This document shows, piece by piece, positions 8,122 to 63,362 of a DNA stretch of 64,000 nucleotides. The notes beneath the pieces are model-generated. The model was not told where the DNA came from, ran no database searches, and saw nothing but the letters and a program-made list of their open reading frames with translations. The stretch comes from Betaproteobacteria bacterium. GTDB lineage: Bacteria; Pseudomonadota; Gammaproteobacteria; Burkholderiales; Casimicrobiaceae. Numbering within the stretch: the first letter of the stretch is position 1; each line of letters starts with the position of its first letter. The stretch spans positions 1 to 64,000 of the forward strand of contig JAAFIS010000013.1 of the NCBI GenBank assembly GCA_013298695.1. Direction: 5' to 3'. The position numbers were made by a program, and so were the translations under genes.

Positions 8122-8343
8122 CGCTCGCTAGGACGACGCTCGCTCCGCGAGCTAGGACGTCGGCACGGAGGCCTAGGACGACGCTCCCGTTGGTCGCTAT
8201 GACGCAAGGTTTCGCTGAAAATGTGTCCGGAATAAAATGCACTGAGTTTGAAAGTTTGTGAAGCTTTGCGTCTTAGCGAAGCGTCGTCCTAGCGCGTAAG
8301 CGCGTCGTCCTAGCGAGCAAAGCGAGCGGCGTCCTGTTTTTGG
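8122..8343. repeat. GACGAC composite repeat block A
   Basis: Fills the dnaX-ybaB gap. Left arms read CTAGGACGACGC with spacers such as GCTCGC-TCC-GCGAGC. A core follows (8200-8275, bounded by GACGCAAGGT and GCTTTGCGTC). Right arms are the same unit in reverse (GCGTCGTCCTAG). Same plan as blocks B, C and D. Confidence 0.7.
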
Positions 8344-8350
8344 AGAAAAC

Positions 8351-8680
8351 ATGTTTGGTGGAAAAGGTGGCATGGCTGGGCTTATGCAACAAGCCCAGAA
8401 AATGCAAGAAAACTTGAAGAAAGCGCAAGACGAAATCGCGCGTATGGAAGTTGAAGGCCAAGCCGGCGCGGGCATGGTCAAGGTGGTGATGACGGGCAAG
8501 CATGATTGCAAGCGCGTGCAAATAGATCCGAGCGTGATGGACGACAAAGAAATGCTCGAGGATTTGATTACCGCCGCGATTAACGACGCTGCACGAAAAA
8601 TCGAAGCCACTTCGTCGGAAAAAATGGGTTCGCTTGCAGGCGGTATGAATTTACCGCCTGGAATGAAATTGCCGTTCTAG
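8351..8680 (+). CDS. ybaB: YbaB/EbfC nucleoid-associated protein
   Basis: A 109-residue YbaB/EbfC family protein, a small dimeric DNA-binding protein of the nucleoid. It has the standard start [19 protein letters not shown], a long amphipathic helix ([17 protein letters not shown]), the strand [19 protein letters not shown] and the helix [14 protein letters not shown]. The length is typical. It sits between dnaX and recR, as in most bacteria, with GGAG upstream (TTTTTGGAGAAAAC). Separation from both neighbours by about 230 bp of repeats is unusual for this operon. Confidence 0.95.
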
Positions 8681-8689
8681 CGAACGGCA

Positions 8690-8893
8690 AAGGACGACGC
8701 GCTCCGCGCTATGACGACGCTCATTTCATTCGCTATGACGACGCGCTTCGCGCTAGGACGCAAGGTCTATGGCTGGCGCTGTCCCTTGAACGAGGCGAAG
8801 GCGTGCGCGCAGAGCTTCCGTCCTAGGCCGAAGGCCGTCGTCCTAGCTCGCTGCGCGCGCGTCGTCCTAGCGAACGAAGTGAGCGACGTCCTT
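8690..8893. repeat. GACGAC composite repeat block B
   Basis: Fills the ybaB-recR gap. Left arms are CTATGACGACGC / CTAGGACGC with spacers such as GCGC-TTC-GCGC. The core runs about 8765-8820. Right arms are inverted (CCGTCCTAG, GCCGTCGTCCTAG, GCGTCGTCCTAG) with spacers GGCC-GAA-GGCC and others. Confidence 0.7.
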
Positions 8894-8913
8894 GGTCGAT
8901 TGGAGATTTCTGT

Positions 8914-9504
8914 TTGACCACGCCAGTTTCGTTCAAAGCGCTCATCGACGCGCTCAAAGCGCTTCCTGGCGTAGGCCCACGCACGGCGCAACGCATCGCT
9001 TTCGAACTTGTACAACGCAGACGCGAAGAAGCGAGCGGCCTTGCGCGGGCGCTCGAAACGGCGCTGGAGAAATTGCGCTCCTGCGAACGCTGTAACACTT
9101 TGTCTGAAACGCCGATTTGCGCGCTGTGCGCATCGCCGCGTCGCGATCCGACTCTGCTTTGTGTCGTTGAAACACCTGCCGATCAAATCACGCTCGAACA
9201 TTCCGGCGCGTTCAGTGGCATGTATTTCGTGCTCATGGGACGCATCTCGCCGCTCGACGGCATCGGCCCTGACGACGTGCAACTCGAAACGCTCATCAAC
9301 CGCGCGAGCGACGGCGTCGTCAAAGAAGTCATCCTCGCTACCAACTTCACCAACGAAGGCGAAGTCACCGCCCACGTCATCGGTGAATTGCTAGAAAAGC
9401 AAGGCGTGAAAGTGTCGCGTCTCGCGCGAGGGATTCCGATTGGGTCGGAGTTGGAGTATGTGGATGCTGCGACGGTGGCGCAGGCGGTTAGGGAGCGGAG
9501 ATAG
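8914..9504 (+). CDS. recR: Recombination mediator RecR
   Basis: A 196-residue RecR, which with RecF/RecO loads RecA on gapped DNA. It shows the helix-hairpin-helix [15 protein letters not shown], the four-Cys zinc finger (CERCNTL, then CALC), the Toprim strand [10 protein letters not shown] and the conserved [16 protein letters not shown]. The start is TTG with TGGAGA at 8901-8906, seven bases away, so the non-ATG start is well supported. It is last in the dnaX-ybaB-recR group. The length is standard. Confidence 0.96.
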
Positions 9505-9597
9505 GCGCGCCGCGAATTCGAGCGCTGGCGTTGTTGCTTTGAAAAATCTCTCCTTCGCCGTACTTACGTGTTGTCTCGTCGCGATTTTTCAAAGCGC

Positions 9598-10056
9598 CTA
9601 GCCATCATCTCGATTGCGCGACGCGTTTTTGTACGTAGTACATGAGTCGTACCCTGCAAATCCCGCCGCAGCAATTCCTGCTATCGAAATTACACCCAAG
9701 ATGGTGGGTAATCCTAAATCGCCCCGCAAGAAAAAAACGGCAGGTACTGCAGCGGTCGCACCCAGAACCAATCCAATCAATCGAAAAATAATCTCGTTTT
9801 TCGACGATCGGGTTTGGTTGTTTATGTTGTCCAACCAATTCCAAAACGCGATCAGACCCCACGTTGCGGCAATCATCCAAATCAGCATCAGACCACCTGA
9901 AACAAATGCGTCAAGATTTGTCGAAGTGCCGCCCAGCGAACTGAAGGCATCGATCAAGCCTAAGATGCTTAAATAAAGCAAGAAAAGAATCTAAGGCGAA
10001 AAAAGCAACGTGCCTGCTATTGCGAGCATTTTGAAGTAGCGGTGTTTCTTTGTCAT
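9598..10056 (-). pseudogene. Small membrane protein interrupted by an in-frame TAG
   Basis: Reading from an ATG at 10056 gives MTKKHRYFKMLAIAGTLLFS, then P and a TAG at 9993-9991. The same frame then continues for 130 codons as ILFLLYLSILGLIDAFSSLG and onward to 9598. The pre-stop part (basic N-terminus, then hydrophobic) joins naturally to the post-stop hydrophobic stretch, as if one first membrane helix were cut. The rest has about three more hydrophobic segments (GGLMLIWMIAATWGLIAFW, LIGLVLGATAAVPAVFFL, GVISIAGIAAAGFAGY). A TTG at 9981 could restart translation. No family recognised. Recent nonsense mutation, sequencing error and restart are all possible. Confidence 0.55.
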
Positions 10057-10141
10057 GAGACCAATTATTGCAGTGATAAGTTGGCGCGAAACGGTATTTT
10101 GTTTTGCAAATCATTTCTCGTGCCCCAAGAAAACTCATTGC

Positions 10142-10167
10142 GTAGCCCGGATGCTCGCATCCGGGTT
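10142..10167. repeat. REP-like palindrome, CCCGGATG type
   Basis: AGCCCGGATG and CATCCGGGTT form a near-perfect inverted repeat around CTCG. This resembles a common intergenic palindrome of proteobacteria. Confidence 0.6.
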
Positions 10168-10216
10168 CCCGTACATCTTCGCGCAGCGATCAATTTAATG
10201 ACGACTCGTCACGTTT

Positions 10217-10240
10217 GATCGCGGCAGAGCCGCTCCTACA
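10217..10240. repeat. REP-like repeat, GCCGCTCCTACA type
   Basis: GATCGCGGCAGAGCCGCTCC continues into TACA. The same motif (ATCGCGGCAAAGCCGCTCCT) recurs inside the acetoacetyl-CoA synthetase gene at 22835. Confidence 0.65.
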
Positions 10241-10289
10241 AGTCGGAGAACCGCGATGCGAGCGTCGAGTCCACGCCATTCGCTCTGAT

Positions 10290-10405
10290 CCCCCCCCCTT
10301 CAGGGGGACGCTTAGGGTGGGGATGGGTTTTCGCTGCATGTACCGACCTTTCCTCAACCACCAAACCCCATCCCCCTCCTAGCCTCCCCCTTGAAGGGGG
10401 AGGGA
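10290..10405. repeat. REP-like inverted pair, CCCCCTTCAGGGGG type
   Basis: The left arm contains CCCCCCTTCAGGGGGACG and GGGTGGGGATGGG (to 10326). The right arm from 10365 contains CCCCATCCCCCTCC and CCTCCCCCTTGAAGGGGGAG. The two arms are related copies in opposite orientation. Confidence 0.65.
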
Positions 10406-10449
10406 CTGTGCGTTGAGTGTGATGTTAAAAAATCGTTGACGCTGCTGAA

Positions 10450-11268
10450 TCAATGCGCCGCGACGAAATCGGCAACCGCAACAAACTGCTCGCAAGACAA
10501 CGTCTCCGCGCGCGCTTGCGGGTCGACGTTTAGCGATGCCCAAGCGTCGACAGGCACGAACGCCCCCAAGCTTTTACGAATCATTTTTCTTCGCTGGGTG
10601 AAGGCGGCGGTGACGATGTTGGCGAACGTTTTTTCGTTCTTTGGGCGAAGCCTTTCCGCGCCAAGCGGTGACAGCCGAACAATCGATGAATCTACCGACG
10701 GCATGGGTTTGAACGCTGTGGGCGGCACGTCGAAACATTTCACGACGTCGAATCGATATTGCAGCATCACGGAAAGCCGTCCACGCGCGTCTTCGCCTTC
10801 GCGCGCAGCCATGCGATCAACCACTTCTTTTTGCAGCATAAACGTCATGTCGGTAATGCGATCTTCATAATCGCAAAGGCGAAACAAAATCGGTGTGGAA
10901 ATGTTGTACGGCAGATTGCCGACGACGCGTAAGGGCGCGGGCAACGTGGCGAAATCGAATTCGAGTGCGTCACCTTCGTGAATGCGCAATTGATCGTGCG
11001 TGAATTCGGTTTTAAGCCGCGCGACAAGATCGCGATCAATTTCTACGACGTCGAGGCTGGCGCGTTGTCCGTCGCTACATTTCGTGTTGATCGCATCAAG
11101 TAATTCGCGAGTGAGCGCAGCTTGGCCGGGGCCGATTTCGACGATGTGATCGTTCGGCTTTGGATCAATAGCGTCGACGATGCGAGCGATGTAGTTGCGA
11201 TCAACGAGAAAGTTTTGACCAAAGCGCTTTTTGGCGCGGTGACGAGTAGGTATTGAATTTGAATCCAC
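10450..11268 (-). CDS. rsmA: 16S rRNA dimethyladenosine transferase RsmA
   Basis: A 272-residue KsgA/RsmA that N6-dimethylates two adjacent adenines in the 3'-terminal helix of 16S rRNA. It has KKRFGQNFL, the SAM motif I EIGPGQAALT, the acidic strand VVEIDRDL and the catalytic NLPYNIS. The C-terminal helical domain includes FTQRRKMIRKSL. The start is GTG at 11268; no strong Shine-Dalgarno is seen. The neighbours are REP-like repeats on both sides rather than the pdxA or surA partners known elsewhere. Confidence 0.95.
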   Translation of the reverse strand: MDSNSIPTRHRAKKRFGQNFLVDRNYIARIVDAIDPKPNDHIVEIGPGQAALTRELLDAINTKCSDGQRASLDVVEIDRDLVARLKTEFTHDQLRIHEGDALEFDFATLPAPLRVVGNLPYNISTPILFRLCDYEDRITDMTFMLQKEVVDRMAAREGEDARGRLSVMLQYRFDVVKCFDVPPTAFKPMPSVDSSIVRLSPLGAERLRPKNEKTFANIVTAAFTQRRKMIRKSLGAFVPVDAWASLNVDPQARAETLSCEQFVAVADFVAAH

Positions 11269-11329
11269 GTGCTTATTTTCTTCTAATGCCGCACGTCCAT
11301 GGTTGATCGAGTGGCCGCAGTTTTCCTGC

Positions 11330-11437
11330 TGTCATCCCCGCGAAGGCGGGGACCCAGTCCCGGAACGGCAGAACGCGCGAATGTGATCGAACATCCAATC
11401 CAGCTCGGTCTGGGTCCCCGCCTTCGCGGGGATGACA
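11330..11437. repeat. Perfect inverted REP-like pair
   Basis: The arm at 11330-11357 (TGTCATCCCCGCGAAGGCGG, then GGACCCAG) is matched exactly in reverse at 11410-11437, 28 bp each, with a 52-bp core. It lies between the 3' end of the DUF3445 gene and the start of rsmA. Confidence 0.8.
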
Positions 11438-11482
11438 ACATATAGGAAAGATCGGTGGGTTTGAAGAGACTGTTGCACAAAA

Positions 11483-12454
11483 CTAGCGTTGCGCGTGGAG
11501 CGCATCAAGTTCATCAAGCAATCGCGGCATCGCCGCAGTCATCCCACGATACGCAACAACCGCTGGCGTCATCGAACGCAGCGCATCGGCAAGCTCACGC
11601 GCACGTTCAGGCGCGGCGTGCAACACGCCAACCATCGGACTCATCATCACCCGAATAAAAAACACCGCGCGGGCAAATTGCGGCAGCGGCCACGTTGTTT
11701 GTCGTTCTACGCGAAAGAAGAGGCGCGGTAACAACGGCGATGGATCAGCGAGCGTTTGAGCCCAGGAATAATCGTTTTGCTCTGGATGTTGATCGAGCGA
11801 CGACGAGGGGACGATGAGCCACACGTGGCGCAGCATCGGTTGCTTGATAAACGCCATCGTCATGATGCTTGAACCCGCGGCGAGGAGCATTTGATTATCA
11901 GCAACGGGTGCGTGAATCTGCGCGAAATCGAGGCCAAGTTTTTCGCGTGGATCCCAGCGTGAGGGGAAACAGACTGAGAGGTATTCGGTGCGCAGCGCGT
12001 CGTTTTCGTTTTTGAGGATGACGAAATCTTCTTGCAGCGAGAGCGCGACGTTTACCCCCTCTCCCGCAGCGCGGGAGAGGGTTGGGGTGAGGGCGGGGTT
12101 TTTCACGCCCTTGTCTTGATTGGACGATTCGCGGAGAAATTTGATGTGTTTTTCATCAGTGATTGCGTGTGTTGCTGCCCTCACCCTAACCCTCTCCCGC
12201 AGCGCGGGAGAGGGAACTAGGCTGCAAATCGCCTCGAGCGCGTCAGAATGCGCAACCCCCACTATCGCCCGCTCCGCAGCCTCACGCAACACCCGCTCAC
12301 GCGCTCTCGCATACGCGGGCGCAAGCTCGTCTTGCAACAGTAATGCGGGCGAAAGAGGATCGAGTTTCTCTAAATTCGGCCGCATACGAAACGGCGCGCT
12401 CACTGGCCAGGGCATGCGCTCAGCAGGAGTTAACCAGTCGATCAGTGCGCCCAT
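11483..12454 (-). CDS. Haem-dependent oxidative N-demethylase-like (DUF3445)
   Basis: A 323-residue protein matching the DUF3445 / HODM-alpha family. Key segments are CFPSRWDPREKLGLDFAQIH, RVERQTTWPLPQ and AVFFIRVMMSP. Known HODM enzymes demethylate methylamines and bind haem through a PAS-like domain. The N-terminus has the expected PF-RM-P-L and ER segments. Residues about 81-135 are foreign to the family: they are coded by two inverted REP-like repeats plus the DNA between them, read through in frame (LVPSPALRERVRVR and ALTPTLSRAAGEGV). The start ATG overlaps the end of the upstream exonuclease gene by 13 bp, so the two are probably co-transcribed. Activity with the insert is uncertain. 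Confidence 0.75.
   Translation of the reverse strand: MGALIDWLTPAERMPWPVSAPFRMRPNLEKLDPLSPALLLQDELAPAYARARERVLREAAERAIVGVAHSDALEAICSLVPSPALRERVRVRAATHAITDEKHIKFLRESSNQDKGVKNPALTPTLSRAAGEGVNVALSLQEDFVILKNENDALRTEYLSVCFPSRWDPREKLGLDFAQIHAPVADNQMLLAAGSSIMTMAFIKQPMLRHVWLIVPSSSLDQHPEQNDYSWAQTLADPSPLLPRLFFRVERQTTWPLPQFARAVFFIRVMMSPMVGVLHAAPERARELADALRSMTPAVVAYRGMTAAMPRLLDELDALHAQR
12055..12214. repeat. Inverted REP-like pair inside the DUF3445 gene
   Basis: Arm A at 12055-12094 and arm B at 12177-12214 both contain CCTCTCCCGCAGCGCGGGAG. They extend as GTTGGGGTGAGGGC (A) and GCCCTCACCCTAAC (B), so they lie in opposite orientation. The reading frame of the host gene passes through both arms and the core with no stop. 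Confidence 0.8.
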
Positions 12455-13221
12455 GCAGCAAGATATTCTTTCCAGTGCGGCCCGGGCAGCGAGGCCAGTT
12501 TGTCTCGCATCATTTTCGTTTCATTCGCGTATTGGGTTGCGTCGAGTTCGCCGCGCATGGCGAGAAAGCGAATGAATACGAGATAGGTGTTCACCACGTC
12601 GGTTTCGCAGTACGCGCGAATGTTCGCGAGCTCGCCGCGCTGAAATGCGTCCCACACTTTGCTGCCGTCCATGCCGAGCTTGCCCGCGAACCCGCAGAGC
12701 TTGGCCATCACATCAAGCGGCGCACTCGCGCGCGCTTGATAGAGCGCGAGAAAATCCATCAAATCGAGATGACGCTCTTTGTATCGATTCAAATAGTGAT
12801 CGAAATTAAACGCGCGATCATTGGCACCGGTTTCGAGCAAACGCGATGCAGCGACGCCGTTAATCAGTCCGCGCTGAATGAGCACCGGCAAATCAAAACC
12901 GCCGCCATTCCACGACACCAGTTGCGGCGTTTTCCGCTCGACGATGTCGAAGAATTTCTGCAACAGCGACGCTTCATCATCACTTTCTTCACCGAGCGTC
13001 CACACCGCGAGTTTGTCGTTGCCTTCGCGCAGAACGCAGGAGATGGCGCACACGCGCTGCAAATACGTTGGCAAAAACTCACTGCCGTTTTTGATGCGCT
13101 GCTGAGCAAAGGCCCACTTCGCAACCTCTGCGTCAGCGAGCGTTTCAGGCAGGTTGTGGAGACGACGCAATCCCGCTACGTCCGGGATGGTTTCGATGTC
13201 GAAGATCAGCGTTGGATACAT
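12442..13221 (-). CDS. Predicted 3'-5' exonuclease, PolB-type
   Basis: A 259-residue protein of the DNA_pol_B_exo2 family (predicted 3'-5' exonucleases related to the PolB proofreading domain). The start MYPTLIFDIETIPD carries the first catalytic Asp and Glu. SWNGGGFDLPVLIQR is the ExoII-type motif with Asp. The third motif is probably AYCETDVVNTYLVF with Asp. The frame is open to 13284, but the homologous N-terminus begins at 13221. Its end overlaps the DUF3445 start. Likely a cytoplasmic DNA repair or processing nuclease. Confidence 0.85.
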   Translation of the reverse strand: MYPTLIFDIETIPDVAGLRRLHNLPETLADAEVAKWAFAQQRIKNGSEFLPTYLQRVCAISCVLREGNDKLAVWTLGEESDDEASLLQKFFDIVERKTPQLVSWNGGGFDLPVLIQRGLINGVAASRLLETGANDRAFNFDHYLNRYKERHLDLMDFLALYQARASAPLDVMAKLCGFAGKLGMDGSKVWDAFQRGELANIRAYCETDVVNTYLVFIRFLAMRGELDATQYANETKMMRDKLASLPGPHWKEYLAAWAH

Positions 13222-13369
13222 CCGAAGATTGTAGAAGCGCGGGAGCGGGTCAGCGTGACGCCACCGTAGGATCGCGCATCGCATAAGCTCCGATCGGTTT
13301 GCGCTCCGCTTGCTGCTGGGCAGGAACGGTAACTAAACAGACACAGCTTATCTCTTATAACGACATACG

Positions 13370-13435
13370 AATTGGGCGAAAATGGAACCGGCGATTATTC
13401 TCGATAACGTGCAAAATACGCAGTGTCGCCCAATT
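13370..13435. repeat. Dispersed 3' element, copy 2
   Basis: Perfect terminal inverted repeat AATTGGGCGA (13370-13379) / TCGCCCAATT (13426-13435) around an AT-rich core with TTCTCGATAACG. It lies downstream of the exonuclease/GIY-YIG gene. This copy best defines the element ends. Confidence 0.75.
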
Positions 13436-13514
13436 TAAAAAGGAATACAGCGCATTCTTTATTGGTAAAACACTACAGTCTTGCCTCGCGCCACAGCCGG
13501 GTACCGACCTTCAA

Positions 13515-14933: not shown

Positions 14934-14954
14934 GTGCAAATTATGAAGCGAATT

Positions 14955-15001: not shown

Positions 15002-15009
15002 AAACTCAA

Positions 15010-15951: not shown

Positions 15952-15969
15952 TACTTTTCGCGAGTGACG

Positions 15970-28021: not shown

Positions 28022-28720
28022 ATGGCCAATAAAATTTTTCCGTCCGCTACCGCCGCACTTCATGGAATCATTGAAGACGGTCAGGTCATCGCCGTCGGCG
28101 GCTTCGGTCTCTGCGGCATTCCTGAGGCGCTGATTGACGCGCTGCAAGCCAGCGGCAAAAAAGAGCTGACTGCGATTTCAAATAACGCGGGCGTGGATGG
28201 CTTCGGCCTTGGCAAGCTACTCGCGACCCGGCAAATCAAAAAAATGATTTCAAGCTACGTTGGCGAGAACAAAGAATTCGAACGGCAATATCTTGCCGGA
28301 GAGCTTGAACTCGATTTCACGCCGCAAGGCACGCTCGCAGAAAAACTTCGCGCTGGCGGTGCTGGCATCCCTGCGTTTTTCACAAAAACGGGTGTTGGCA
28401 CTATCGTGGCCGAAGGTAAAGAAGTACGCGAGTTTGACGGCGAAAAATATGTGATGGAGCGCTCGCTCGTCCCCGACGTGTCACTCGTGAAAGCCTACAT
28501 CGCGGATAAATCCGGCAACCTGATTTTCCGAAAAACCGCGCGCAACTTCAATCCGAATGTCGCGATGGCCGGCAAGATCACGATTGTTGAAGTCGAAAAA
28601 ATTGTAGATACCGGCGCGCTTGATCCCGATCAAATTCATTTGCCGGGTATCTTCGTGCATCGTATCGTGCTCAACGCAACGCCCGAAAAACGTATTGAAC
28701 AGAGAACCGTTCGCGCATAA
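28022..28720 (+). CDS. scoA: 3-oxoacid CoA-transferase, subunit A
   Basis: A 232-residue CoA-transferase alpha subunit (SCOT type), moving CoA between succinyl-CoA and acetoacetate. It has [20 protein letters not shown] (CoA loop), [36 protein letters not shown] and [11 protein letters not shown], all typical. The catalytic Glu is in the B subunit. The start ATG at 28022 follows GAAAAGAAAA. The B subunit gene is 254 bp downstream, with a repeat block in between; in most genomes these genes nearly touch. Confidence 0.95.
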
Positions 28721-28728
28721 CGCGAACG

Positions 28729-28968
28729 GAGGACGTCGCTGCGCTAGGACGACGCGGCTTTGCCGCTAAGACGTCGCTTCGCTAGGACGCAAAGCAATGT
28801 TTGATCGAAAGAATTTACGAACCACTAATTTATGCAACAAAACAGCAAACGAGTAAGGCGGCTGAAGATAGTCGAGCTTTGCGTGCTAGGCGCGCGACAA
28901 ACCTGTCGTACGTCGAGTTCGCGCGTCGACGTCCTCTCGTCCTCTCGTCCTGTCCGAACGTAGAGAGG
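28729..28968. repeat. GACGAC composite repeat block C
   Basis: Separates scoA and scoB. Left arms are GGACGTCGC, CTAGGACGACGC with spacer GCGGC-TTT-GCCGC, and CTAAGACGTCGC. The core runs 28786-28890, bounded by GGACGCAAAGC and GCTTTGCG. Degenerate right arms follow (GACGTCCTCTCGTCCTCTCG). Confidence 0.6.
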
Positions 28969-28974
28969 ACACAC

Positions 28975-29613
28975 ATGCCTTGGACCCGTGACGAAATGGC
29001 TGCTCGTGCAGCGAAAGAATTGCAAGACGGTTTCTATGTAAACCTTGGTATCGGTTTGCCGACGCTCGTGGCCAACCACGTGCCGAAAGGCATGGAAGTT
29101 TGGTTGCAATCGGAGAATGGTTTGCTTGGTATTGGCCCGTTTCCGACCGAAGCGGAGGTCGATCCCGACATGATTAACGCGGGCAAACAAACGGTGACCA
29201 CGATTCCCGGATCGTCGATTTTTTCAAGTGCTGATAGCTTCGGCATGATCCGCGGTGGAAAAATTAATCTTGCGATTCTTGGTGCGATGCAGGTGAGCGA
29301 GAAGGGCGATCTTGCCAACTGGATGATTCCCGGCAAGATGGTTAAAGGCATGGGCGGCGCGATGGATTTGGTCGCGGGCGTCGGCCGCGTTGTCGTACTC
29401 ATGGAACACGTTGCGAAGAAAAAAGACGGCAGCACCGATCTGAAAATTCTTCCGAAATGTAATTTGCCGCTCACGGGTGTTGGCGTGGTTGATCTCATCA
29501 TTACGGATCTCGGCGTGCTGGAAGTCACTCACGCAGGGCTTTCGATCACTGAACTCGCACCGGGCGTGACTCGCGAAGACATGCAAGCGGCAACCGGCGC
29601 ACATCTGCACTAG
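28975..29613 (+). CDS. scoB: 3-oxoacid CoA-transferase, subunit B
   Basis: A 212-residue beta subunit. [14 protein letters not shown] holds the catalytic Glu that forms the CoA thioester. [18 protein letters not shown] and [20 protein letters not shown] are standard. The open frame reaches 28801, but those codons lie in repeat block [14 protein letters not shown] with AGAGAGGA 5-6 bases upstream is the real start. Together with subunit A it gives an ATP-free route between acetoacetate and acetoacetyl-CoA, parallel to the synthetase at 22090. Confidence 0.95.
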
Positions 29614-34334: not shown

Positions 34335-34412
34335 CGGGGCGTAGCGCAGCCCGGTTAGCGCATCTGCTTTGGGAGCAGAGGGTCGTGAGTTCGAATCCCA
34401 CCGCCCCGACCA
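34335..34412 (+). tRNA. tRNA-Pro (anticodon TGG)
   Basis: The full cloverleaf is visible. The acceptor is CGGGGCG / CGCCCCG, the anticodon loop TTTGGGA is closed by TCTGC / GCAGA, and the T-arm contains GTTCGAATC. The CCA is encoded. First of three clustered tRNA genes. Confidence 0.95.
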
Positions 34413-34447
34413 TTCACCTTTCGACGAAAATCGAGTAGTGCTTGGAC

Positions 34448-34502
34448 TGTTGTAGAAAAATGTGAGTCCCGCCTAGGCGGGCTTCTCATTTGAACTACAA
34501 CA
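34448..34502 (+). other. Long hairpin between tRNA-Pro and tRNA-Arg
   Basis: The outer stem TGTTGTAG / CTACAACA (34448-34455 / 34495-34502) encloses AAATG / CATTT and an inner CCCGCC-TA-GGCGGG (34468-34481). No T-run follows, so it may be a processing signal or an attenuating structure rather than a terminator. Confidence 0.5.
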
Positions 34503-34504
34503 AT

Positions 34505-34581
34505 GTGCCCGTAGCTCATCTGGATAGAGCACCGGCCTTCTAAGCCGGGGGTAACAGGTTCGAGTCCTGTCGGGCGCGCCA
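34505..34581 (+). tRNA. tRNA-Arg (anticodon TCT)
   Basis: Acceptor GTGCCCG / CGGGCGC, anticodon loop CTTCTAA closed by CCGGC / GCCGG, T-arm with GGTTCGAGTCC, encoded CCA. It reads AGA codons. Confidence 0.95.
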
Positions 34582-34623
34582 GACGCTTTTTCGCGACGTG
34601 TGATGGACTAAGTAACGATCAAT

Positions 34624-34699
34624 GGCGGCCGTAGCTCAGCGGTAGAGTCCTGGATTGTGATTCCAGTTGTCGCGGGTTCGAACCCCGTCGGCCGCCCCA
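34624..34699 (+). tRNA. tRNA-His (anticodon GTG)
   Basis: Acceptor GCGGCCG / CGGCCGC with the extra G-1 opposite C73 that marks tRNA-His. The anticodon loop TTGTGAT is closed by CTGGA / TCCAG; CCA is encoded. Last of the cluster. Confidence 0.95.
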
Positions 34700-56245: not shown

Positions 56246-56314
56246 CCGCGTGAGTTACCCACTAAAGACTCATACACTTCGTCAACATTTCATGCTCGAC
56301 CATTAGAGAAAGTC

Positions 56315-58684
56315 ATGAACAACCGCACCAGCGCTCGCCCCACACTCACCACTGAACAGTGGCGGCGGGTGTTCGCGCGCGTTGATGAGCAAGCGCCAAA
56401 TGCAGCTCATGCGCCAAGCGCTGACGCCGATCCAGCGGTTGCCGATGCGCTCGCGTACTTTGAACAAATACGCGACACGCATGCACCGGAAACAAACTCG
56501 TTCGCAGCAATTGCAGATGCGATAGTTGGCACGTCGACTGTGATGTCCGGCCAACGCTGCGGAAACTACGAATTGATCGAACCGATCGGACGCGGCGGCA
56601 TGGGCAGCGTGTGGCGAGCGCGGCGCATCGATGGTTTGTATCAGCAAGAGGTTGCGGTGAAGTTGCTGGGCACGCTTGCGCTGTCGGCGCAGGCGCGAGC
56701 GCGTTTTGCACGTGAGGGTGAACTGCTCGCGCGCCTCGCGCATCCCAATATTGCGCGTTTGCTCGATGCTGGCGTTACAGACGATGGGCAACGCTTTTTG
56801 GTACTGGAACTGGTTAACGGCGCGGACATCGCGGCGTATTGCAAGGGCCTGAGCGAGCGCGAGGTGATTGCCGTTTTTCAATCATTGCTCGCGGCGGTAG
56901 CGTATGCGCATTCGCAGCTCGTATTGCATCGTGACATTAAGCCGGGCAATGTATTAGTCAGTCCGACGGGTGACGTAAAGCTTCTTGATTTTGGCGTTGC
57001 GAAACTGGTTGATGAGACCGTTGAAAACGCAACGGAAAACGACGATCTCACACGCGTCGCCGGACACGCGCTCACCGAAGCGTACGCAGCGCCGGAACAA
57101 GTCAGCGGCGCAGCCGTGGGCACTCAAACCGATGTGTTTGCGCTTGGATCGTTGTTGCTCGAATTGATGCTGGGCGAGCGCATTCGTTGGTCGCGCCCGA
57201 AGCGCGAATGGGCTGCGAGCGGCGCGAAGATTCGAATTGAAAATGCGCTGGATCGCTTGCATCCTGATTTACGCGCAGTGCTCGCAAAGGCGACGGCCAT
57301 TGAGATGCCGGATCGCTACGCAACCGTCATTGAGTTTGCCGACGATCTTGCACGTTACACGAGCGCGCGCCCGGTTCGTGCGCGTGAAGTCTCTCGCTGG
57401 TATCGAGCGCGTCGATTCGTAGGACGCAATCGTTTTGCCGTCGGCGCGGGTGTGATTGCAGCGTCAGCTGTCGTCGCAAGCTTAGCCGTTGCGATGTTGC
57501 AACTAAACGTTGCGCGCAACGAACGCGCGAGCGCACAGCGCGAGGCTGCGCGCGCTCAGGGCACCACCAAGTTTCTAAAGGAAATGTTTTTGTCCGCTGC
57601 GGCACGTGCGCGGGACAGCGGTGCGCCGCCGCCGACTTTAATGCAAGTGCTCGAAGGCGGCCTAGCGCAGGTGCGCAGCGATGCGAGCCATGATGTTGAT
57701 ACGAAGCTCGCGCTGTTTGGCGCACTCGCCGAGGTGTACGGCACACTCGACACGCAAGCCGCAGGTGAGCGCTTCGCGGAGGTTACGGCGGAGCGTATTG
57801 CATTGGCGCGTTCGCACTACGGCGAAAAGCATCCGGTGATTTATGAGTCGACCATGATCGACATTGGCGCAGACGTTTACTCAGGCAATTTTGCCGCCGC
57901 AAAAACATCGTTGCTTGCGCTTGAAGCGCTGATGAAAGACGAGCCGCTGCGCAGTGGCGCAGGCGATGAGCGCTACGCAAATCGACTGGAGACCCGCGCC
58001 GCTATTGAGCGCGGACTCGCGGAAGAGTCGCTGCCGCAGATATTGGCGCGATACGAAGCCGCGCTGACTGAGTTTCGTTCGGTGAACGGTGATCGCGCTA
58101 CCGCTGATCACGCGGCAACTCTCGCGAACTTCGCGAAGACGCAGTTGCGGATGGAAAGATTCGACGGTGCGTTGAAGTCAGTCGATAGCGCCATCGCCAT
58201 GATGAAAGCGTCGTTAAACGAGGGCTCGAGCGATCAAGGCAATCTCTCGGGCAGCTACGCGCTGCGGGCGCGAGTGCTTGGCGAATTGAAGCGCTACGAT
58301 GAAGCGTTGAAAGCTATTGATGAGGCAATCGCGATGCAAGCGAGGCTCACGGGTGATTCGCATGTGCTTACGCTCAACATGCGACTCGAACGCGCGAAAT
58401 GGTTGCATCAGTCGGGCCAGCGTGAGGCCGCGTGGCGCGAGCTTGAAATCGTGTCGAAAATCGAGCGCGCGCCAACGGCCAATACCTTGAACGTCAATGA
58501 ACAACACTATGTTCGCGGACAATTATTGCTTGCTGAGTCGCGCTTTGACGAGGCGATTACCTCGCTATCGCGCGCCGTAGATGGCTGGGCGAAGGCGAAT
58601 AACAATCCAACCCGGTTTAAGGCCGCCACGTCGCTACTTGAGGAAGCAAAAGTGCAAATGGCCCGTCAATCTCCGAGCCGGTAA
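56315..58684 (+). CDS. Ser/Thr protein kinase with TPR sensor
   Basis: A 789-residue PknB-type kinase. It has the Gly loop IGRGGMGSVW, Lys in VAVKLLG, catalytic HRDIKPGNVLV, DFG in KLLDFGVAKL and the AAPEQVS activation end. A single membrane helix (FAVGAGVIAASAVVASLAVA, about 378-397) leads to a C-terminal region of helical TPR-like repeats (LGELKRYDEALKAIDEAIAM). An N-terminal extension of about 75 residues precedes the kinase. The 3' end overlaps the convergent ECF sigma gene by 19 bp. Its likely substrate is that sigma factor (see findings). Confidence 0.9.
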   Translation: MNNRTSARPTLTTEQWRRVFARVDEQAPNAAHAPSADADPAVADALAYFEQIRDTHAPETNSFAAIADAIVGTSTVMSGQRCGNYELIEPIGRGGMGSVWRARRIDGLYQQEVAVKLLGTLALSAQARARFAREGELLARLAHPNIARLLDAGVTDDGQRFLVLELVNGADIAAYCKGLSEREVIAVFQSLLAAVAYAHSQLVLHRDIKPGNVLVSPTGDVKLLDFGVAKLVDETVENATENDDLTRVAGHALTEAYAAPEQVSGAAVGTQTDVFALGSLLLELMLGERIRWSRPKREWAASGAKIRIENALDRLHPDLRAVLAKATAIEMPDRYATVIEFADDLARYTSARPVRAREVSRWYRARRFVGRNRFAVGAGVIAASAVVASLAVAMLQLNVARNERASAQREAARAQGTTKFLKEMFLSAAARARDSGAPPPTLMQVLEGGLAQVRSDASHDVDTKLALFGALAEVYGTLDTQAAGERFAEVTAERIALARSHYGEKHPVIYESTMIDIGADVYSGNFAAAKTSLLALEALMKDEPLRSGAGDERYANRLETRAAIERGLAEESLPQILARYEAALTEFRSVNGDRATADHAATLANFAKTQLRMERFDGALKSVDSAIAMMKASLNEGSSDQGNLSGSYALRARVLGELKRYDEALKAIDEAIAMQARLTGDSHVLTLNMRLERAKWLHQSGQREAAWRELEIVSKIERAPTANTLNVNEQHYVRGQLLLAESRFDEAITSLSRAVDGWAKANNNPTRFKAATSLLEEAKVQMARQSPSR

Positions 58685-59229
58685 GCAAGAAATAATCGCG
58701 CCTTTTCCCAATCGCGCGCAGCCGTTGCCAGCGAAATCCCGAGCGCTTCGGCGCATTCTTCAACCGAGAATCCACCAAAGTAGCGAAGCTCTACCAAATC
58801 GTGGCAGCGCTCGTCGATGTCTTTGAGCTGCTGCATCGCTTCGTGCACCGCGAGTACGCGCGTGTGATCCGCCGATTCGCCTGCGAGCGACGTTAACAGC
58901 GTGACATCGAGTTGGCCGCCGCCGCGTTTTTCAGCATCGCGTTCGCGCACGTAGTCAACAATTACGCTGCGCATTACTTTGCTTGCATAGCCGAAGAACA
59001 CTTTTCGGTTCTCGGTACTTGAAAGACTGCGCCCAACAAGTCGCTCGTAGGACTCGTTAACCAGGCTTGTTGGCGATAACAATGTAAGCTCAGATTCGCG
59101 TGCGACCTTCGAGCGCGCTAGCTGTTTCAGCTCAACATACACGGCATCGAACAATAGCTTTTTTGCAATCGAGTTACCGTCGTTTGCATTTTGCAAAAGT
59201 TGCGTGATGTCAGTCTCGGAAACGGTCAT
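58666..59229 (-). CDS. ECF sigma factor, TIGR02999-like
   Basis: A 187-residue sigma factor. Region 2 has LTLLSPTSLVNESYERLVGR and GYASKVMRSVIVDYVRERDA; region 4 has DLVELRYFGGFSVEECAEAL and GISLATAARDWEKARLFLAY. This matches the ECF group often encoded with Ser/Thr kinases and lacking a classical anti-sigma gene. In that group phosphorylation of the sigma factor is the known switch (EcfP/PknT of Vibrio). The ATG at 59229 is preferred over GTG at 59250. The gene is divergent from a secreted-protein gene, a candidate target. Confidence 0.9.
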   Translation of the reverse strand: MTVSETDITQLLQNANDGNSIAKKLLFDAVYVELKQLARSKVARESELTLLSPTSLVNESYERLVGRSLSSTENRKVFFGYASKVMRSVIVDYVRERDAEKRGGGQLDVTLLTSLAGESADHTRVLAVHEAMQQLKDIDERCHDLVELRYFGGFSVEECAEALGISLATAARDWEKARLFLAYRLGD

Positions 59230-59344
59230 AGTTTGAAAAGTTGTCGGCACTGCCGTTTAGACGCAAATCGAGAGACTAATGCGCCATGAGAGATATTTCC
59301 GCCCGCTTTCGTCTGTACGAGTAGGTGTTCAACGGAGATTCACT

Positions 59345-59911
59345 GTGTTTTTTAAGCATTATCAGAGCAATTCGACCCAGCGATACGCGATCAAAGCGGT
59401 ATTGATTGCGCTCTCGCCTGCATTTTTAGCCGCAGCGCAGTTTGCCGAAGCGCAAGACGCGAGCTGTGCGGCCTACATTGACGCAACAATTCCGAAACCG
59501 GATCGCCCGTATCGCGTTCAACAATCAATGACCGTGGCTGGACAGGTGACTAAGAGCGAAGCCGTGTACATCAACAACACGATCTACGTTAAGTCGGGTG
59601 ACGCTAATCCCGCAAAGTGGCGAGCGACGCCAGTCCCGGATTTGAAAGCGGCAATCGAAGAGGCGAAAAAATCAACATCTCGGTGCAGCGTAAGCGGCGT
59701 TGATGTGTTGGACGGGAAGCCAATGAAAGTGTGGACGAGTTACGCGACGACGCCCTTTGAGCCGAAACCTTCGCAGTGGAAGACGTGGATCGGTGCGGTT
59801 GACGGACGGGTGTATCGTCAATTGTCGGAAGGTTTCGAGCAACGAATTTTTTATGACAATGTGGCGGCTCCGCCCGCAGACGAAATCGCTTCTCCACGAA
59901 AAAGAAAATAG
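59345..59911 (+). CDS. Secreted protein, unknown family
   Basis: A 188-residue exported protein. The signal peptide is KAVLIALSPAFLAAAQFAEA with cleavage near AQDASC. The mature part has two conserved-looking Cys (ASCAAYIDA, SRCSVSGVD) and a lipoprotein-like beta pattern (SEAVYINNTIYVKSGD, MKVWTSYATTPFEPKPSQWK), reminiscent of LolA/LppX folds but not diagnostic. GGAGA lies 8 bases before GTG 59345, which is preferred over 59279. It starts 115 bp from the divergent ECF sigma gene, so sigma-dependent control is possible. Confidence 0.65.
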   Translation: MFFKHYQSNSTQRYAIKAVLIALSPAFLAAAQFAEAQDASCAAYIDATIPKPDRPYRVQQSMTVAGQVTKSEAVYINNTIYVKSGDANPAKWRATPVPDLKAAIEEAKKSTSRCSVSGVDVLDGKPMKVWTSYATTPFEPKPSQWKTWIGAVDGRVYRQLSEGFEQRIFYDNVAAPPADEIASPRKRK

Positions 59912-59950
59912 TGATCACCGATCTCGGCAAGTAAGCCATAACGACCAAAT

Positions 59951-60016
59951 TATTGGGCGATGACGAGAATTGCGTCAGTTATCAACAGCCAAGTTTTATT
60001 GAGTTATCGCCCATTC
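59951..60016. repeat. Dispersed 3' element, copy 12
   Basis: TATTGGGCGAT (59951-59961) and ATCGCCCATT (60006-60015) form the inverted ends. The core has CAGTTATCAACAGCC. It is between convergent stop codons of the secreted protein and DUF2237 genes. A second ACTGGGCGAAG lies just outside. Confidence 0.7.
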
Positions 60017-60086
60017 GAATTGACGTTTACTGGGCGAAGCGGATCTCGCTAGGCAACGTGATACGCGCTTCCCGTTCGCTTAGACG

Positions 60087-60467
60087 TTAAAGCTCACGCT
60101 CAGTTGCGGCGTATTCTTTGAGCGCTGAAAGCGGCACGATGTCGAGCGCTTTTTCATGCGTTGCGTCGAGCACCACGTGCGGTGCACAACCCGCTCCATA
60201 CGCTTCTAACCAACGCGCGGCGCACAGGCACCAGCGGTCGCCTTCGACGAGCCCCGGAAACCCATAAAACGCGTTTGGCGTTGAAAGATCGTTGCCGCGC
60301 GATTTACTAAACGCCAAGAACTCAGACGTCATGATCGCGCACACGGTATGCGAACCGGTGTCTTGCGGCCCCGTTTCGCAGCAGCCGCTGCGCGTGAAGC
60401 CGGTGAGCGGATCGTGGCTACAGTCTTTGAGTGGCGCGCCGAGCACGTTTAAACCGCGAAATGCCAT
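60087..60467 (-). CDS. DUF2237 family protein
   Basis: A 126-residue protein matching DUF2237: NVLGAPLKDCSHDPLTGFTR, CETGPQDTGSHTVCAIMT, FLAFSKSRGNDLSTP and GDRWCLCAARWLEAYGAGCA. Six or more conserved Cys suggest a metal or redox role; function unknown. It follows the DUF3253 gene by 28 bp on the same strand. Confidence 0.9.
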   Translation of the reverse strand: MAFRGLNVLGAPLKDCSHDPLTGFTRSGCCETGPQDTGSHTVCAIMTSEFLAFSKSRGNDLSTPNAFYGFPGLVEGDRWCLCAARWLEAYGAGCAPHVVLDATHEKALDIVPLSALKEYAATEREL

Positions 60468-60495
60468 GAGAATTGCCTAGAAATTGAAGCCTTAA

Positions 60496-60762
60496 TTATC
60501 GATCAATATCGCGAGCCAAACGATAGCGAATCGCGCCGCGAATCTCGTTTGTGGGGTCGCAGACGACGCCACGCTGCGAGATCTCAATGGCTCCTCGCCG
60601 TGCAAGCGCGACGCCGCGCGCACGCACGGTGGGCATATGTTCTCGCCATTCATCAGGCCACAACGCGCGCGCAACTTCGCTGGGGCAAATCGTCGCCAGT
60701 GGAGCGCGTGATTCGCACAGCGCGAGGAGAGTTGCATCGATTAGTGTTTCAGCCGTCGTCAC
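60496..60762 (-). CDS. DUF3253 family protein
   Basis: An 88-residue winged-helix-like DUF3253 protein: ICPSEVARALWPDEWREHMP and RGAIEISQRGVVCDPTNEIR, then GAIRYRLA. Such proteins occur with DUF2237 or S-adenosyl-linked genes, role unknown. It is upstream of DUF2237 and probably co-transcribed. Confidence 0.88.
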   Translation of the reverse strand: MTTAETLIDATLLALCESRAPLATICPSEVARALWPDEWREHMPTVRARGVALARRGAIEISQRGVVCDPTNEIRGAIRYRLARDIDR

Positions 60763-60822
60763 AACTAAGCTACGCCCAATGAATACGCATTTCGTAGAGC
60801 TTCAGAATGCAGCTGTGAATTG

Positions 60823-61791
60823 CTAATCCGCTTTGATGTTTCGCGACGAAATCAGCTTCTGCCATCGCGTGAATTCTGCCGCTTGAAACGTTGCAAATTG
60901 CGCGGGTGAATTGAGTACGATTTCGAATCCGAGATCGGTTAATCGCGCTGCAGTTTGCGGTTCGCGAATCGTCGCGACGATGGCGTCATGGAGTCGTTTT
61001 TTCACGTCCGCCGGTAATCCTTTCGGCGCTGCGACCGCTTGCCACGAATAAACATTGGCGTCTTTCACACCGCTTTCTTCGAGGGTCGGCACGTCTGGCA
61101 ACAACGCCGAGCGCTTGGCGCTAGTAATGGCAAGCGCGCGCAATTTACCGGCTTTGATTTGCGGCATCGCCGTGTTGATATTCATCCATGATGCGTTGAC
61201 TTGCCCGCCCAAAAGATCAGTCATCACCGGGCCACCGCCTTTGTAGGGCACGTGAACGCCCGTAGTGCCCGTTTGTTGCCAGAAAAGTTCTGCCGTTAGA
61301 TGGTCGCTGCTACCGTTTCCTGATGAGCCAAATGTCATCTTGCCGGGATTCGTTTTTTGGAACGCAATCACGTCTGCGAGCGACTGCGCGGTGAAGGCTG
61401 CGGGCACCACAAGTACGTTGGGTGCTTGCACGACGACGGTGATCGGATCGAAATCCTTGAGCGCGTCGTAGTTGGTTTTGATGAGGTGCGGCGCGATCAC
61501 AAAAGGGCCGAGTGAAGACACAAACAAGGTGTAACCATCGGCGGGGGAGCGCGCGACTTGCTGCGCGCCGATGGTGCCGGTCGCGCCCGCTTTGTTCTCA
61601 ACGATGAAGCTTGCGCCATTGAGCCGCGCGCCCATTGCGCCGGATAAAGTTCGCGCAATTTGATCGGTCGAACCGCCGGGCGGAAACGGCACGAGCAACG
61701 TAATCGGTTTCTCAGGCCACGCAAAAGTTGCGGCGCTTGCGAGGCCGGCCATTGCAGCAAACGCTCTGACGAAAAGACGATGTGAATTCAC
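60823..61791 (-). CDS. Bug family TTT solute-binding protein
   Basis: A 322-residue Bug receptor, the second in the window. The signal peptide ends SAATFAWPEK, then PITLLVPFPPGGSTDQIART, GATGTIGAQQVARSPADGYT, MTFGSSGNGSSDHLTAELFW and VPYKGGGPVMTDLLGGQ. Two GTG codons are close (61797, 61791). GGAG is 5 bases from the second, so 61791 is taken. No TctAB genes are nearby. Ligand probably a small carboxylate. Confidence 0.93.
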   Translation of the reverse strand: MNSHRLFVRAFAAMAGLASAATFAWPEKPITLLVPFPPGGSTDQIARTLSGAMGARLNGASFIVENKAGATGTIGAQQVARSPADGYTLFVSSLGPFVIAPHLIKTNYDALKDFDPITVVVQAPNVLVVPAAFTAQSLADVIAFQKTNPGKMTFGSSGNGSSDHLTAELFWQQTGTTGVHVPYKGGGPVMTDLLGGQVNASWMNINTAMPQIKAGKLRALAITSAKRSALLPDVPTLEESGVKDANVYSWQAVAAPKGLPADVKKRLHDAIVATIREPQTAARLTDLGFEIVLNSPAQFATFQAAEFTRWQKLISSRNIKAD

Positions 61792-61815
61792 GGTCACTCC
61801 TTGTCGATGTTTTTC

Positions 61816-62058
61816 TTACGTTTCTAAGCGCGGCGCGCGAGGAAGCGCATCGGCTTCATTGTGCGACAAATCTTTAGTGATTTGCAGATTGCGTCGATAC
61901 GCGCCGGGCGCGAAACGCGGAAACTGAAACGCTCGGTGCAACAAGAGGTCGCACTCGCTATGTTCGTCGCGTGGAACGCGGAGTTTGCTCAGCGCAATTG
62001 ATCCTATCAAGCGCGGGTTTTTGCCGGTGACCACAGCGCCAAAACAGGAAAGCGACAA
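61816..62058 (-). CDS. Doubtful small ORF upstream of the Bug gene
   Basis: An 80-codon frame with a TTG start, no Shine-Dalgarno and no recognised family (VPRDEHSECDLLLHRAFQFP). Composition is plausible for coding DNA, but nothing confirms it. The rest of the 61792-62187 gap holds repeat copy 13. Confidence 0.2.
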   Translation of the reverse strand: MSLSCFGAVVTGKNPRLIGSIALSKLRVPRDEHSECDLLLHRAFQFPRFAPGAYRRNLQITKDLSHNEADALPRAPRLET

Positions 62059-62088
62059 ATGTTTTCGTCAAAAGCTACGTAGGCTAAG

Positions 62089-62173
62089 GCCCAGTTTAAT
62101 TGGGCGCGAAGAGTGTTTATCGTGTATTTCGATAGTAGACTCACCGTGCAGTGAAGCCCGTTATAGTCGGGGC
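62089..62173. repeat. Dispersed 3' element, copy 13
   Basis: The hairpin GCCCAGTTTAATTGGGC (62089-62105) is followed by a core with TTTATCGTGTATTTCGATAG and GAAGCCCGTTATAG. It lies 15 bp downstream of the cysM stop. Confidence 0.55.
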
Positions 62174-62187
62174 TAAGCGGCGATAGC

Positions 62188-63087
62188 TTATCCTGGGAAC
62201 ACACCGGTCGATAGGTATCGATCACCACGGTCGCAAACAATGAAAACGACGGTCGCGTGGGTGAGTTCTTTGGCGACGCGAAGTGCTATCTGACACGCCC
62301 CTGCCGCCGACACGCCGCAAAAGATACCTTCGACGACGGCGAGTTCTCGCGTCATCGCTTCGGCGTCAGATTGTGCAACTTCTTCGACGCGATCAATGCG
62401 CGCCTTTTTTGAGATTTCTGGCTTGTAAGCGTCGGGCCATTTGCGAATGCCAGCAATGCTCGAACCATCGGTCGGTTGTGCACCGACGATAACGATTTTT
62501 TCGTTCTGCTCTTTGAGGTAATTTGATACGCCGGTAATGGTGCCTGTGGTTCCCATTGCGCTCACGAAATGTGTCACCTGGTGATGGGTTTGCTGCCAGA
62601 TCTCCGGCCCGGTGCCGCGATAGTGCGCGAGCGGGTTGTCGGGGTTTGCGAACTGATCGAGCACGCGACCTTGTCCTTCGTTTTGCATCTTCACGGCAAG
62701 ATCGCGCGCGCCTTCCATGCCCTCGGTTTTGGACACCAAAATCAATTCGGCACCAAACGCCTTCATCGATTGCCGCCGCTCAAGCGATTGGTTTTCCGGC
62801 ATGATGAGTTTCATCTTGTAACCGCGCATCGCCGCCACCATCGCCAGCGCAATGCCCGTGTTGCCGCTCGTCGCTTCAATCAACGTGTCGCCCGGTTTAA
62901 TTTCACCGCGTTTTTCCGCTTCCATAATCATGGAAAACGCAGGACGATCTTTCACGCTGCCGGCAGGATTGTTGCCCTCCATCTTGGCAAGAATCACGTT
63001 TGATTCGTGAATGCCGAATTGCTGCGGCAAACGTTGCAGACGAACAAGTGGCGTGTTGCCAATAGTGGATTCGATGGTTGGGTACAT
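62188..63087 (-). CDS. cysM: Cysteine synthase B
   Basis: A 299-residue PLP enzyme making cysteine from O-acetylserine and sulfide or thiosulfate. It has IGNTPLVRLQRL, GNNPAGSVKDRPA (PLP Lys), EATSGNTGIALAMVAAMRGY and AMGTTGTITGVSNYLK (phosphate loop). IKPGDTLIEATS and the RPA rather than RIA after the PLP Lys favour CysM over CysK. ATG at 63087 is standard. No neighbour of sulfur metabolism is seen. Confidence 0.94.
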   Translation of the reverse strand: MYPTIESTIGNTPLVRLQRLPQQFGIHESNVILAKMEGNNPAGSVKDRPAFSMIMEAEKRGEIKPGDTLIEATSGNTGIALAMVAAMRGYKMKLIMPENQSLERRQSMKAFGAELILVSKTEGMEGARDLAVKMQNEGQGRVLDQFANPDNPLAHYRGTGPEIWQQTHHQVTHFVSAMGTTGTITGVSNYLKEQNEKIVIVGAQPTDGSSIAGIRKWPDAYKPEISKKARIDRVEEVAQSDAEAMTRELAVVEGIFCGVSAAGACQIALRVAKELTHATVVFIVCDRGDRYLSTGVFPG

Positions 63088-63099
63088 GGTTTGAAATGC

Positions 63100-63362
63100 A
63101 GGACGGCGCGCTTCGCGCTATGACGACGCTTCGCTATGACGACGCCGCTTCGCGGCTAAGACGCAAAGCTTCACGAACGTTGCCGCGAAGAAACCGACTG
63201 GTGGAGATCAGCACGTGATGATACGCGCAGACGCGACGTAGCTGTCATCAACAGGCGGCGGCATCCTCTGCAACGTCATCTCGTCCTAGCGCCCAAAGAG
63301 GCGCATCGTCCTAGGCCGAGGGGCCGTCGTCCTAGCGCGAAGCGCGTCGTCCTTCGCGCGCG
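63100..63362. repeat. GACGAC composite repeat block D
   Basis: Between the ComEA-like gene and cysM. Left arms are CTATGACGACGC (twice) with spacers GCGC-TTC-GCGC and GCCGC-TTC-GCGGC. The core is 63160-63280. Right arms are inverted, CGTCCTAG units with spacers GCGCC-N6-GGCGC, GGCC-GAGG-GGCC and GCGC-GAA-GCGC. Confidence 0.7.

Follow-up and report, generated by a model that had tools for sequence, protein, structure and literature searches.

Repeats of the repetitive extragenic palindrome (REP) type are known by a conserved stem; those of the GTAG kind are known also by a partner, a REP-associated tyrosine transposase (RAYT). In the Neisserial intergenic mosaic elements (NIME), short palindromic repeats flank differing cores in a betaproteobacterium, and the dRS3 repeat of these elements has a fixed sequence of its own. 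The transposase TnpA-REP uses a tetranucleotide foot, a CT cleavage site and, in group 3, also a loop G; with the group 3 Stenotrophomonas enzyme, cleavage is lost on a change at foot position 3 or 4, CTAG merely weakens it and the first G of the loop is required (PMC8266576). In the promoter hairpins of the phage N4 virion RNA polymerase, the C:G closing pair and the 5′G and 3′A of the three-base loop are needed for extrusion and stability, the non-conserved stem bases only need to pair, and single-stranded DNA-binding protein (SSB) melts the hairpin of the non-template strand and spares that of the template strand (PMC4496689); sheared G-A pairing is described in such loops (PMC4496689, PMC6479982). 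Here we describe a family of composite elements with inverted arms of minihairpin units, four of which lie in positions 1 to 64,000 of contig JAAFIS010000013.1 (assembly GCA_013298695.1, Betaproteobacteria bacterium, Casimicrobiaceae), the 64,000-nt stretch referred to below as the window. The reading that we favour, to which we give about an even chance, is that they form a genus-restricted, non-autonomous mobile family resembling the REPINs (inverted REP doublets), and that it is the folded single strand of their DNA which would be processed.

An element begins with AGGACG, ends with CGTCCT and has a core of 36-406 nt between two arms, which are inverted relative to each other and built of units (foot, hairpin, foot) in tandem (Table 1). 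With variation, the arrangement can be written AGGACG[A/T]CG-hairpin-(CTANGACGACG-hairpin)n-CTANGACGC(A/G)A-core-TTGCGTCNTAG-(hairpin-CGTCGTCNTAG)n-hairpin-CG[A/T]CGTCCT. A first-pass annotation of the window had placed four such blocks at 8122-8343, 8690-8893, 28729-28968 and 63100-63362, where they are present within a few bases, and had seen inverted units in all of them; this is correct in general, but the right arm of element 3 is degenerate and lies outside the family grammar, and element 1 has no left terminal AGGACG, its start being the dnaX stop codon (limits 8122/8128-8335). The inverted arms with their AGGACG and CGTCCT ends are terminal inverted repeats of the kind found in miniature inverted-repeat transposable elements (MITEs). 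As in a REPIN, they form an inverted doublet with a spacer, able to form a long hairpin, and two folds pair the left with the right arm. Covariation between left and right arms is weak, the core-side junction variants agreeing in 22 of 39 cases versus 16.0 expected (P 0.019). The base immediately outside clean element ends is C or A in 83 of 100, a possible insertion preference.

The unit motif CTAKGACGACG, with at most one mismatch, was found 15 times in the window versus 1.83 expected, and 15 was reached in 0 of 100 shuffles. In what follows, G and L labels denote the genomes and loci of the comparison, G000 being the genome to which the window belongs. A search of G000, as the first-pass annotation had recommended, yielded 38 occurrences of CTAKGACGACGC (20+18) versus 4 (2+2) of the reversed pattern, and the unit is also frequent in five other species of the genus, so that the blocks are not confined to the window. 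The hairpin statistics cover the window and 60 fetched stretches picked around pattern matches, with G009, G010 and G014 sampled in part only; this fetched DNA of six species contains 76 clusters of at least two units. An Rfam search at gathering score gave nothing in the blocks, the only matches in the window being a signal recognition particle (SRP) RNA and three tRNAs.

The spacers had been reported to differ and yet mostly to self-pair. When distinct spacers of at least 7 nt were scored over the fetched loci for at least three consecutive end pairs (GT allowed), 115 of 202 were self-paired versus 32.0 ± 4.3 in 1000 reshufflings of the 3′ halves, the largest of which gave 47. The report is thus borne out, with the correction that some long hairpins are imperfect, 46 units having a symmetric GA/GA internal mismatch in the stem. 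A sharper constraint, absent from the first-pass annotation, was revealed at the tip. In the 171 perfect triloop hairpins, which have 36 different stems, the loop-closing pair is always C-G (171/171), and the loop on the outward strand, that is, the strand reading away from the core, is GNA in 134. A single pair lies inside the spacer in 41 of the 171, and with stems of at least three pairs the closing pair is C-G in 128/128. With distinct hairpins counted once, the first pair is C-G in 62/62, the second is GC (40), CG (17) or AT (5), and the third may be of all four types. The bias is strand-specific, since over all scored units the three-base loops on the outward strand are GNA in 140 of 179 and TNC in 1. 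Control triloop hairpins with a stem of at least four pairs, taken from the same loci outside the elements, are closed by C-G in 654/1906 and have a GNA or TNC loop in 200/1906. Three-base loops are commoner than four-base loops.

At the base of the stem, the foot CTAN (outward NTAG) was found in 279/298 units by a scan that did not require it. Across the 298 units the outward N is C in 61%, T in 17%, A in 17% and G in 5%, and at internal junctions it is C in 116/185. First-unit records, classed by eye, are preceded by AG, i.e. by CT on the outward strand, in 100 of 153 cases; those lacking it are mostly internal units in a shifted frame or units after a short leader beginning AGGA, with L103 as a clear exception, and element ends on the outward strand are CT almost throughout. 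The invariant C-G closing pair together with the strand-specific GNA loop points to selection. As stems change freely and tip and foot are nearly fixed, the cell may read the folded single-strand shape and not the sequence.

The layout resembles that of NIME, but the dRS3 sequence is not the unit described here. The tip rule is that of the N4 promoter hairpins, whose stems are likewise free if paired (PMC4496689). The latter are phage promoters, whereas no sign of a polymerase was seen for the present units, and the likeness is in the structure rule only. The stability of GNA loops is here taken from the literature because the DNA energy parameters used give GNA no reward. Counterparts of the TnpA-REP foot, loop G and cleavage site are found in TAG, the mostly G-first loop and the CT end (PMC8266576). 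With the GTAG-REPs and REPINs the units share a one-strand tetranucleotide foot, a perfect stem, a three-base loop in which the first G is important, a CT site, inversion around a less conserved spacer and an intergenic position (PMC8266576, PMC3116915, PMC3733652). They differ in that the 5′ foot is NTAG, rarely GTAG, where those repeats have GTAG or GTRG, that the 36 perfect stems replace the one conserved stem per family, that each arm carries several units and that none of 30 inspected RAYT genes is abutted by a unit. The CGTC-REPs, including Neisseria dRS3, are alike in having CGTC beside a hairpin, inverted dimers and variable spacers, and in lacking a dedicated transposase; their stems are of 8-9 bp and nearly always start with AT pairs, the loops are of 4-5 nt and the tail is mostly CCA (PMC3733652). 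The present units are not CGTC-REPs, NTAG standing between CGTC and a short free stem and the loops being mostly of 3 nt. In agreement with the first-pass annotation, a literature search of partial coverage returned no name for the repeat.

Elements occupy orthologous sites (purA, gatA-gatB, scoA-scoB, dnaX-ybaB-recR and others) in species that mostly share 70-83% identity in the flanks. At these sites hairpins and cores have mostly been replaced and the junctions kept. In G002 a decayed right arm remains before ybaB, and a RecR+YbaB tree, built from 16 genomes and weakly supported, suggests that the element was present ancestrally and was lost in part of the genus; the comparison of the dnaX-ybaB-recR gaps leaves aside those of G001, G008, G011, G012 and G014 and the upstream part of G004. 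Two copies of a whole element were seen in G005, L304 and L305, which are separated by 3.1 kb and share 86% identity over 142 nt. Their homology starts exactly at AGGACG and stops one base beyond CGTCCT, between unrelated flanks, so that several copies with common limits exist in one genome, as in a MITE; a third relative, 19 kb off, is 76% identical over 126 of 140 nt. Non-orthologous elements of G000 align through the core at 70-73% (L106/L115 and L114/L117), and much of the score may come from the arms.

Other repeats were seen at the same places. In L101 and in the dnaX-ybaB-recR gaps of G002, G004 and G009, CCCTCTCCC/GGGTGAGGG-type repeats, which we take to be perhaps intrastrand triplex repeats, lie within cores or beside arms. 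In L128 and L242 (G007), the dnaX-ybaB gap contains tandem arms of a different word, AGTGAACAGTGAACAGTG-like, inverted around a core. By eye, the L070 core (G005) resembles a broken piece of a four-helix-bundle gene of the 23S intervening sequence type and contains stops.

A second arm form was identified, in which GACGAAT-type heptamers take the place of the hairpin units and the ends and core edge are as in the hairpin form. Arms are thus made of GACG modules linked either by three bases or by a minihairpin unit. Heptamer arms are found at orthologous sites of sister species (ybaB-recR in G010, dnaX-ybaB in G005), and mixed arms, in which heptamers alternate with hairpin units, occur in L257, L262 and L280. 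In the 17 genus genomes, heptamer counts are 77 in G005, 39 in G009, 63 in G010, 73 in G011, 64 in G012, 79 in G014, 4 in G000, 1 in G002 and 0 in the other nine. The longer heptamer form was detected in 3 of 300 genomes of the order, all in this genus. The hairpin unit was detected in 6 of 60 genomes of the family, all in one genus; a search of 60 relatives gave a background of 0-1 per genome outside the genus, and within the genus the pattern is absent in 11 of 17 genomes. Carriers are G000, G005, G009, G010, G012 and G014, and G001, G003, G007, G013 and G015 are among the genomes that lack both arm forms. No match was obtained with one 76-nt arm in phages and plasmids or with the exact two-foot pattern in viral contigs. 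These results indicate a real family which is, as far as searched, limited to one betaproteobacterial genus.

Arms free of hairpins at the same loci in sister species, together with the mixed arms, would also suit a classical MITE of a DDE-type transposase, in which the GACG modules would be multiple transposase sites in the terminal inverted repeats and the hairpins variable spacers. The elements resemble MITEs in being non-autonomous, in their inverted AGGACG/CGTCCT ends and in the copied unit with exact limits. On the other hand, mere spacers need neither a fixed C-G closed tip nor strand polarity, and the elements differ from MITEs in their composite, interchangeable arms and mostly unrelated cores. 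No target-site duplication accompanies the one clean pair, a flush direct repeat being absent at either copy of L304/L305, and no transposase gene lies between the arms in four inspected stretches of G005 (L289, L290, L291 and L294). We consider this explanation unlikely.

An action at the level of the transcript was suggested by the genomic positions. The first-pass annotation had noted that compact operons are split, and this was confirmed: ybaB and recR are separated by 233 bp here versus 34 bp in G003 and G016, scoA-scoB is interrupted in the window and gatA-gatB is likewise split by an element. Its gene names (DnaX, YbaB, RecR and two CoA-transferase subunits) were upheld by Pfam (Table 1). 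As an RNA element of the operon, the arrays transcribed between co-directional genes would stabilise, terminate or process the mRNA, in line with blocks that extend from stop codon to ribosome site, with 19 of 28 G000 clusters lying between same-direction open reading frames (ORFs; mechanical call) and with the strong RNA fold of element 4 (z -4.4). The pair statistics give no support to such an effect, the sense strand having 8 GU versus 8 AC pairs and so no signature of RNA selection. Moreover, because the arms are mirror images, one arm in any transcript shows the non-GNA strand, and three-base loops outnumber those of four bases. This explanation seems to us quite improbable. Elsewhere in the window, a bacterial small SRP RNA lies at 6006-6102, upstream of dnaX (Rfam RF00169, 66.5 bits), and three tRNA genes are clustered at 34335-34696 (Rfam match).

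Table 1. Elements, abutting hairpins and neighbouring genes in the window
Feature	Position	Strand	Description
Element 1	8122..8335	.	dnaX/ybaB gap; left arm 8128-8201, core ~8202-8272, right arm until CGTCCT 8330-8335
Element 2	8691..8892	.	ybaB/recR gap; AGGACG end, 3 hairpin units, core ~8758-8823, 3 inverted units, CGTCCT end
Element 3	28730..28951	.	scoA/scoB gap (two CoA-transferase genes); left arm intact, right arm degenerate
Element 4	63100..63353	.	upstream of PALP-family gene; AGGACG end, 3 units, core, 3 inverted units, CGTCCT end
Perfect hairpin abutting element 2	8669..8690	.	TTGCCGTTC..GAACGGCAA; left half is the ybaB coding end, stop codon at loop
Perfect hairpin abutting element 3	28707..28729	.	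CCGTTCGCG-CATAA-CGCGAACGG; left half is the scoA coding end, stop codon in loop
dnaX	6439..8121	+	Pfam DNA polymerase III gamma/tau domains; upstream neighbour of element 1
ybaB	8351..8680	+	Pfam YbaB_DNA_bd; between elements 1 and 2
recR	8914..9504	+	Pfam RecR domains; downstream of element 2
scoA, CoA-transferase subunit	28022..28720	+	Pfam CoA_trans; upstream of element 3
scoB, CoA-transferase subunit	28975..29613	+	Pfam CoA_trans; downstream of element 3
PALP-family enzyme gene	62188-63087	-	Pfam; element 4 upstream

Two of the elements in the window directly adjoin a further perfect hairpin (Table 1). In the whole sample, a perfect stem of at least 7 pairs lies within 3 nt of the element end at 22 of 100 ends versus 8 of 1461 control positions (P ~2e-21); the script detected 109 ends, excluding those without a recognisable start, and nine were dropped as duplicates, for want of an A[A/G]GACG start or because a unit motif lay no more than 40 nt away. 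At heptamer-armed ends, a stem of at least 6 was found in 11/62 versus 13/972 and of at least 7 in 4/62 versus 5/972. The sequence of the abutting hairpin varies by locus, and at ybaB, scoA, purA and gatA one of its halves is coding sequence. At purA both halves have changed together between G000 and G009 (GAATTGA/TCAATTC versus GAACTGA/TCAGTTC). At the gatA end, compared by eye between L115 and L085, the gene-end hairpins of two species differ at the same element boundary, and in one case an amino acid difference creates the pairing. As the flanking hairpins differ within the clean copy pair, the abutting hairpin is part of the target rather than of the element; ordinary gene ends carry hairpins too, so that the simplest explanation is insertion next to a hairpin already present at a gene end.

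Covarying hairpins, specific to their locus and mirroring a coding end, could also be expected if the hairpins were under no selection, palindrome-correcting template switching keeping the stems paired and gene conversion keeping the arms alike. The same process would fit the third unit of element 2, of which the whole stem has been replaced between G000 and G009 with constant flanks, and the frequency of identical hairpins, which is somewhat higher within than between genomes (0.0128 versus 0.0079 with shuffled labels, reached in 6 of 2000; the two commonest hairpins were excluded). The first-pass annotation had taken compensating change of the stems as the mark of selection. The changing stems and fixed flanks were indeed found, but alone they are no proof, because palindrome-correcting copying errors also produce them. 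What such errors do not predict is the invariant closing pair and the strand-specific loop, and we regard an absence of selection as distinctly unlikely.

Some functions of bacterial interspersed mosaic elements (BIME) are of the binding kind. That the arrays are host chromosome sites, forming cruciforms bound by gyrase, a nucleoid protein or a repair nuclease, with mobility long over, is very unlikely in spite of the extrusion-type tips and of positions conserved between species with such diverged flanks, because absence of the hairpin pattern from 11 of the 17 genus genomes and the decayed arm of G002 indicate that the array is not needed, and unit content differs greatly between species.

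A RAYT gene had been suggested as the partner, an idea that the data do not support. The only RAYT (Y1_Tnp) match in G000 (L031, G000:C1:98770-102135) is bounded on either side by copies of a GTAG-REP of its own (GTAGGGTGGGCACCCCGTGCCCACC) and lies next to an IS110-family transposase gene, and its 3.4-kb locus contains no element unit. The RAYT of G010 is likewise flanked on both sides by a GTAG-bearing repeat of its own, read from the sequence. Two RAYT loci, L207 and L217 (in G010 and G014), have a block at a distance of ~1 kb with another gene in between, and seven further loci have isolated motif matches only. RAYT numbers in the 17 genus genomes do not track block numbers. A RAYT as dedicated partner thus lacks support and, because the inspected RAYT loci have no abutting units, REPIN-like working is proposed and membership of the GTAG-REPs or REPINs is not.

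Several observations weigh against the favoured reading of a REPIN-like mobile family. The unit abuts none of 30 RAYT loci (30 of 44 matches, 17 genomes), at least 7 of which have repeated GTAG hairpins of their own, and GTAG itself is rare as a foot (10/298 units). An autonomous copy, with a gene between inverted arms, was sought in the four G005 stretches listed above and ordinary ORFs only were found; in one case two arms separated by 1.65 kb have an Lnt-type gene between them. The tip rule has deviations, AAA loops accounting for 21 of the 171 triloop hairpins and the commonest long hairpin (19 of the 46 in the GA/GA class) having an AAC loop, and with the DNA energy parameters used GNA loops have no advantage, both strands being equal in 62/62. 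There is just one clean copy pair, which could be a local duplication since its copies lie near each other; the cores of different G000 loci, taken alone, show no similarity at E 0.01. Finally, a stem of at least 7 lies near the stop in 30/229 ordinary gene ends and in 15/55 beside elements, and the abutting hairpin may partly be a common gene-end feature.

If the REPIN-like reading is right, the outward strand would be read while single-stranded, either as lagging-strand template or after extrusion by supercoiling. The reader would be a putative hairpin-reading enzyme of the HUH Y1 kind (TnpA-REP, IS200/IS605) or comparable, dependent on tip, TAG foot and CT end and indifferent to the stem sequence. 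Copying of whole elements would be rare, with targets preferred at the foot of a hairpin, and swap or addition of units more frequent, so that arms would remain alike and stems turn over. More tentatively, and with a likelihood well below even, the genome may contain dozens of arrays that follow a structural code, in which only tip (C-GNA-G), foot (TAG) and end (CT) are recognised and the stems are free. Such arrays would extrude and resist SSB like N4 promoters, be read in single-stranded form by an enzyme not yet described, and grow, shrink and exchange units, including heptamer for hairpin form and the reverse, at fixed chromosomal sites and at the feet of existing hairpins. With stems free and tip and foot fixed, natural variation (171 triloop hairpins with 36 stems) would show what the recognition of single-strand hairpins depends on. 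The family would offer extrusion-type DNA minihairpins as a natural set spread over a genome, and is relevant to the persistence and movement of palindromic repeats that have no dedicated transposase.

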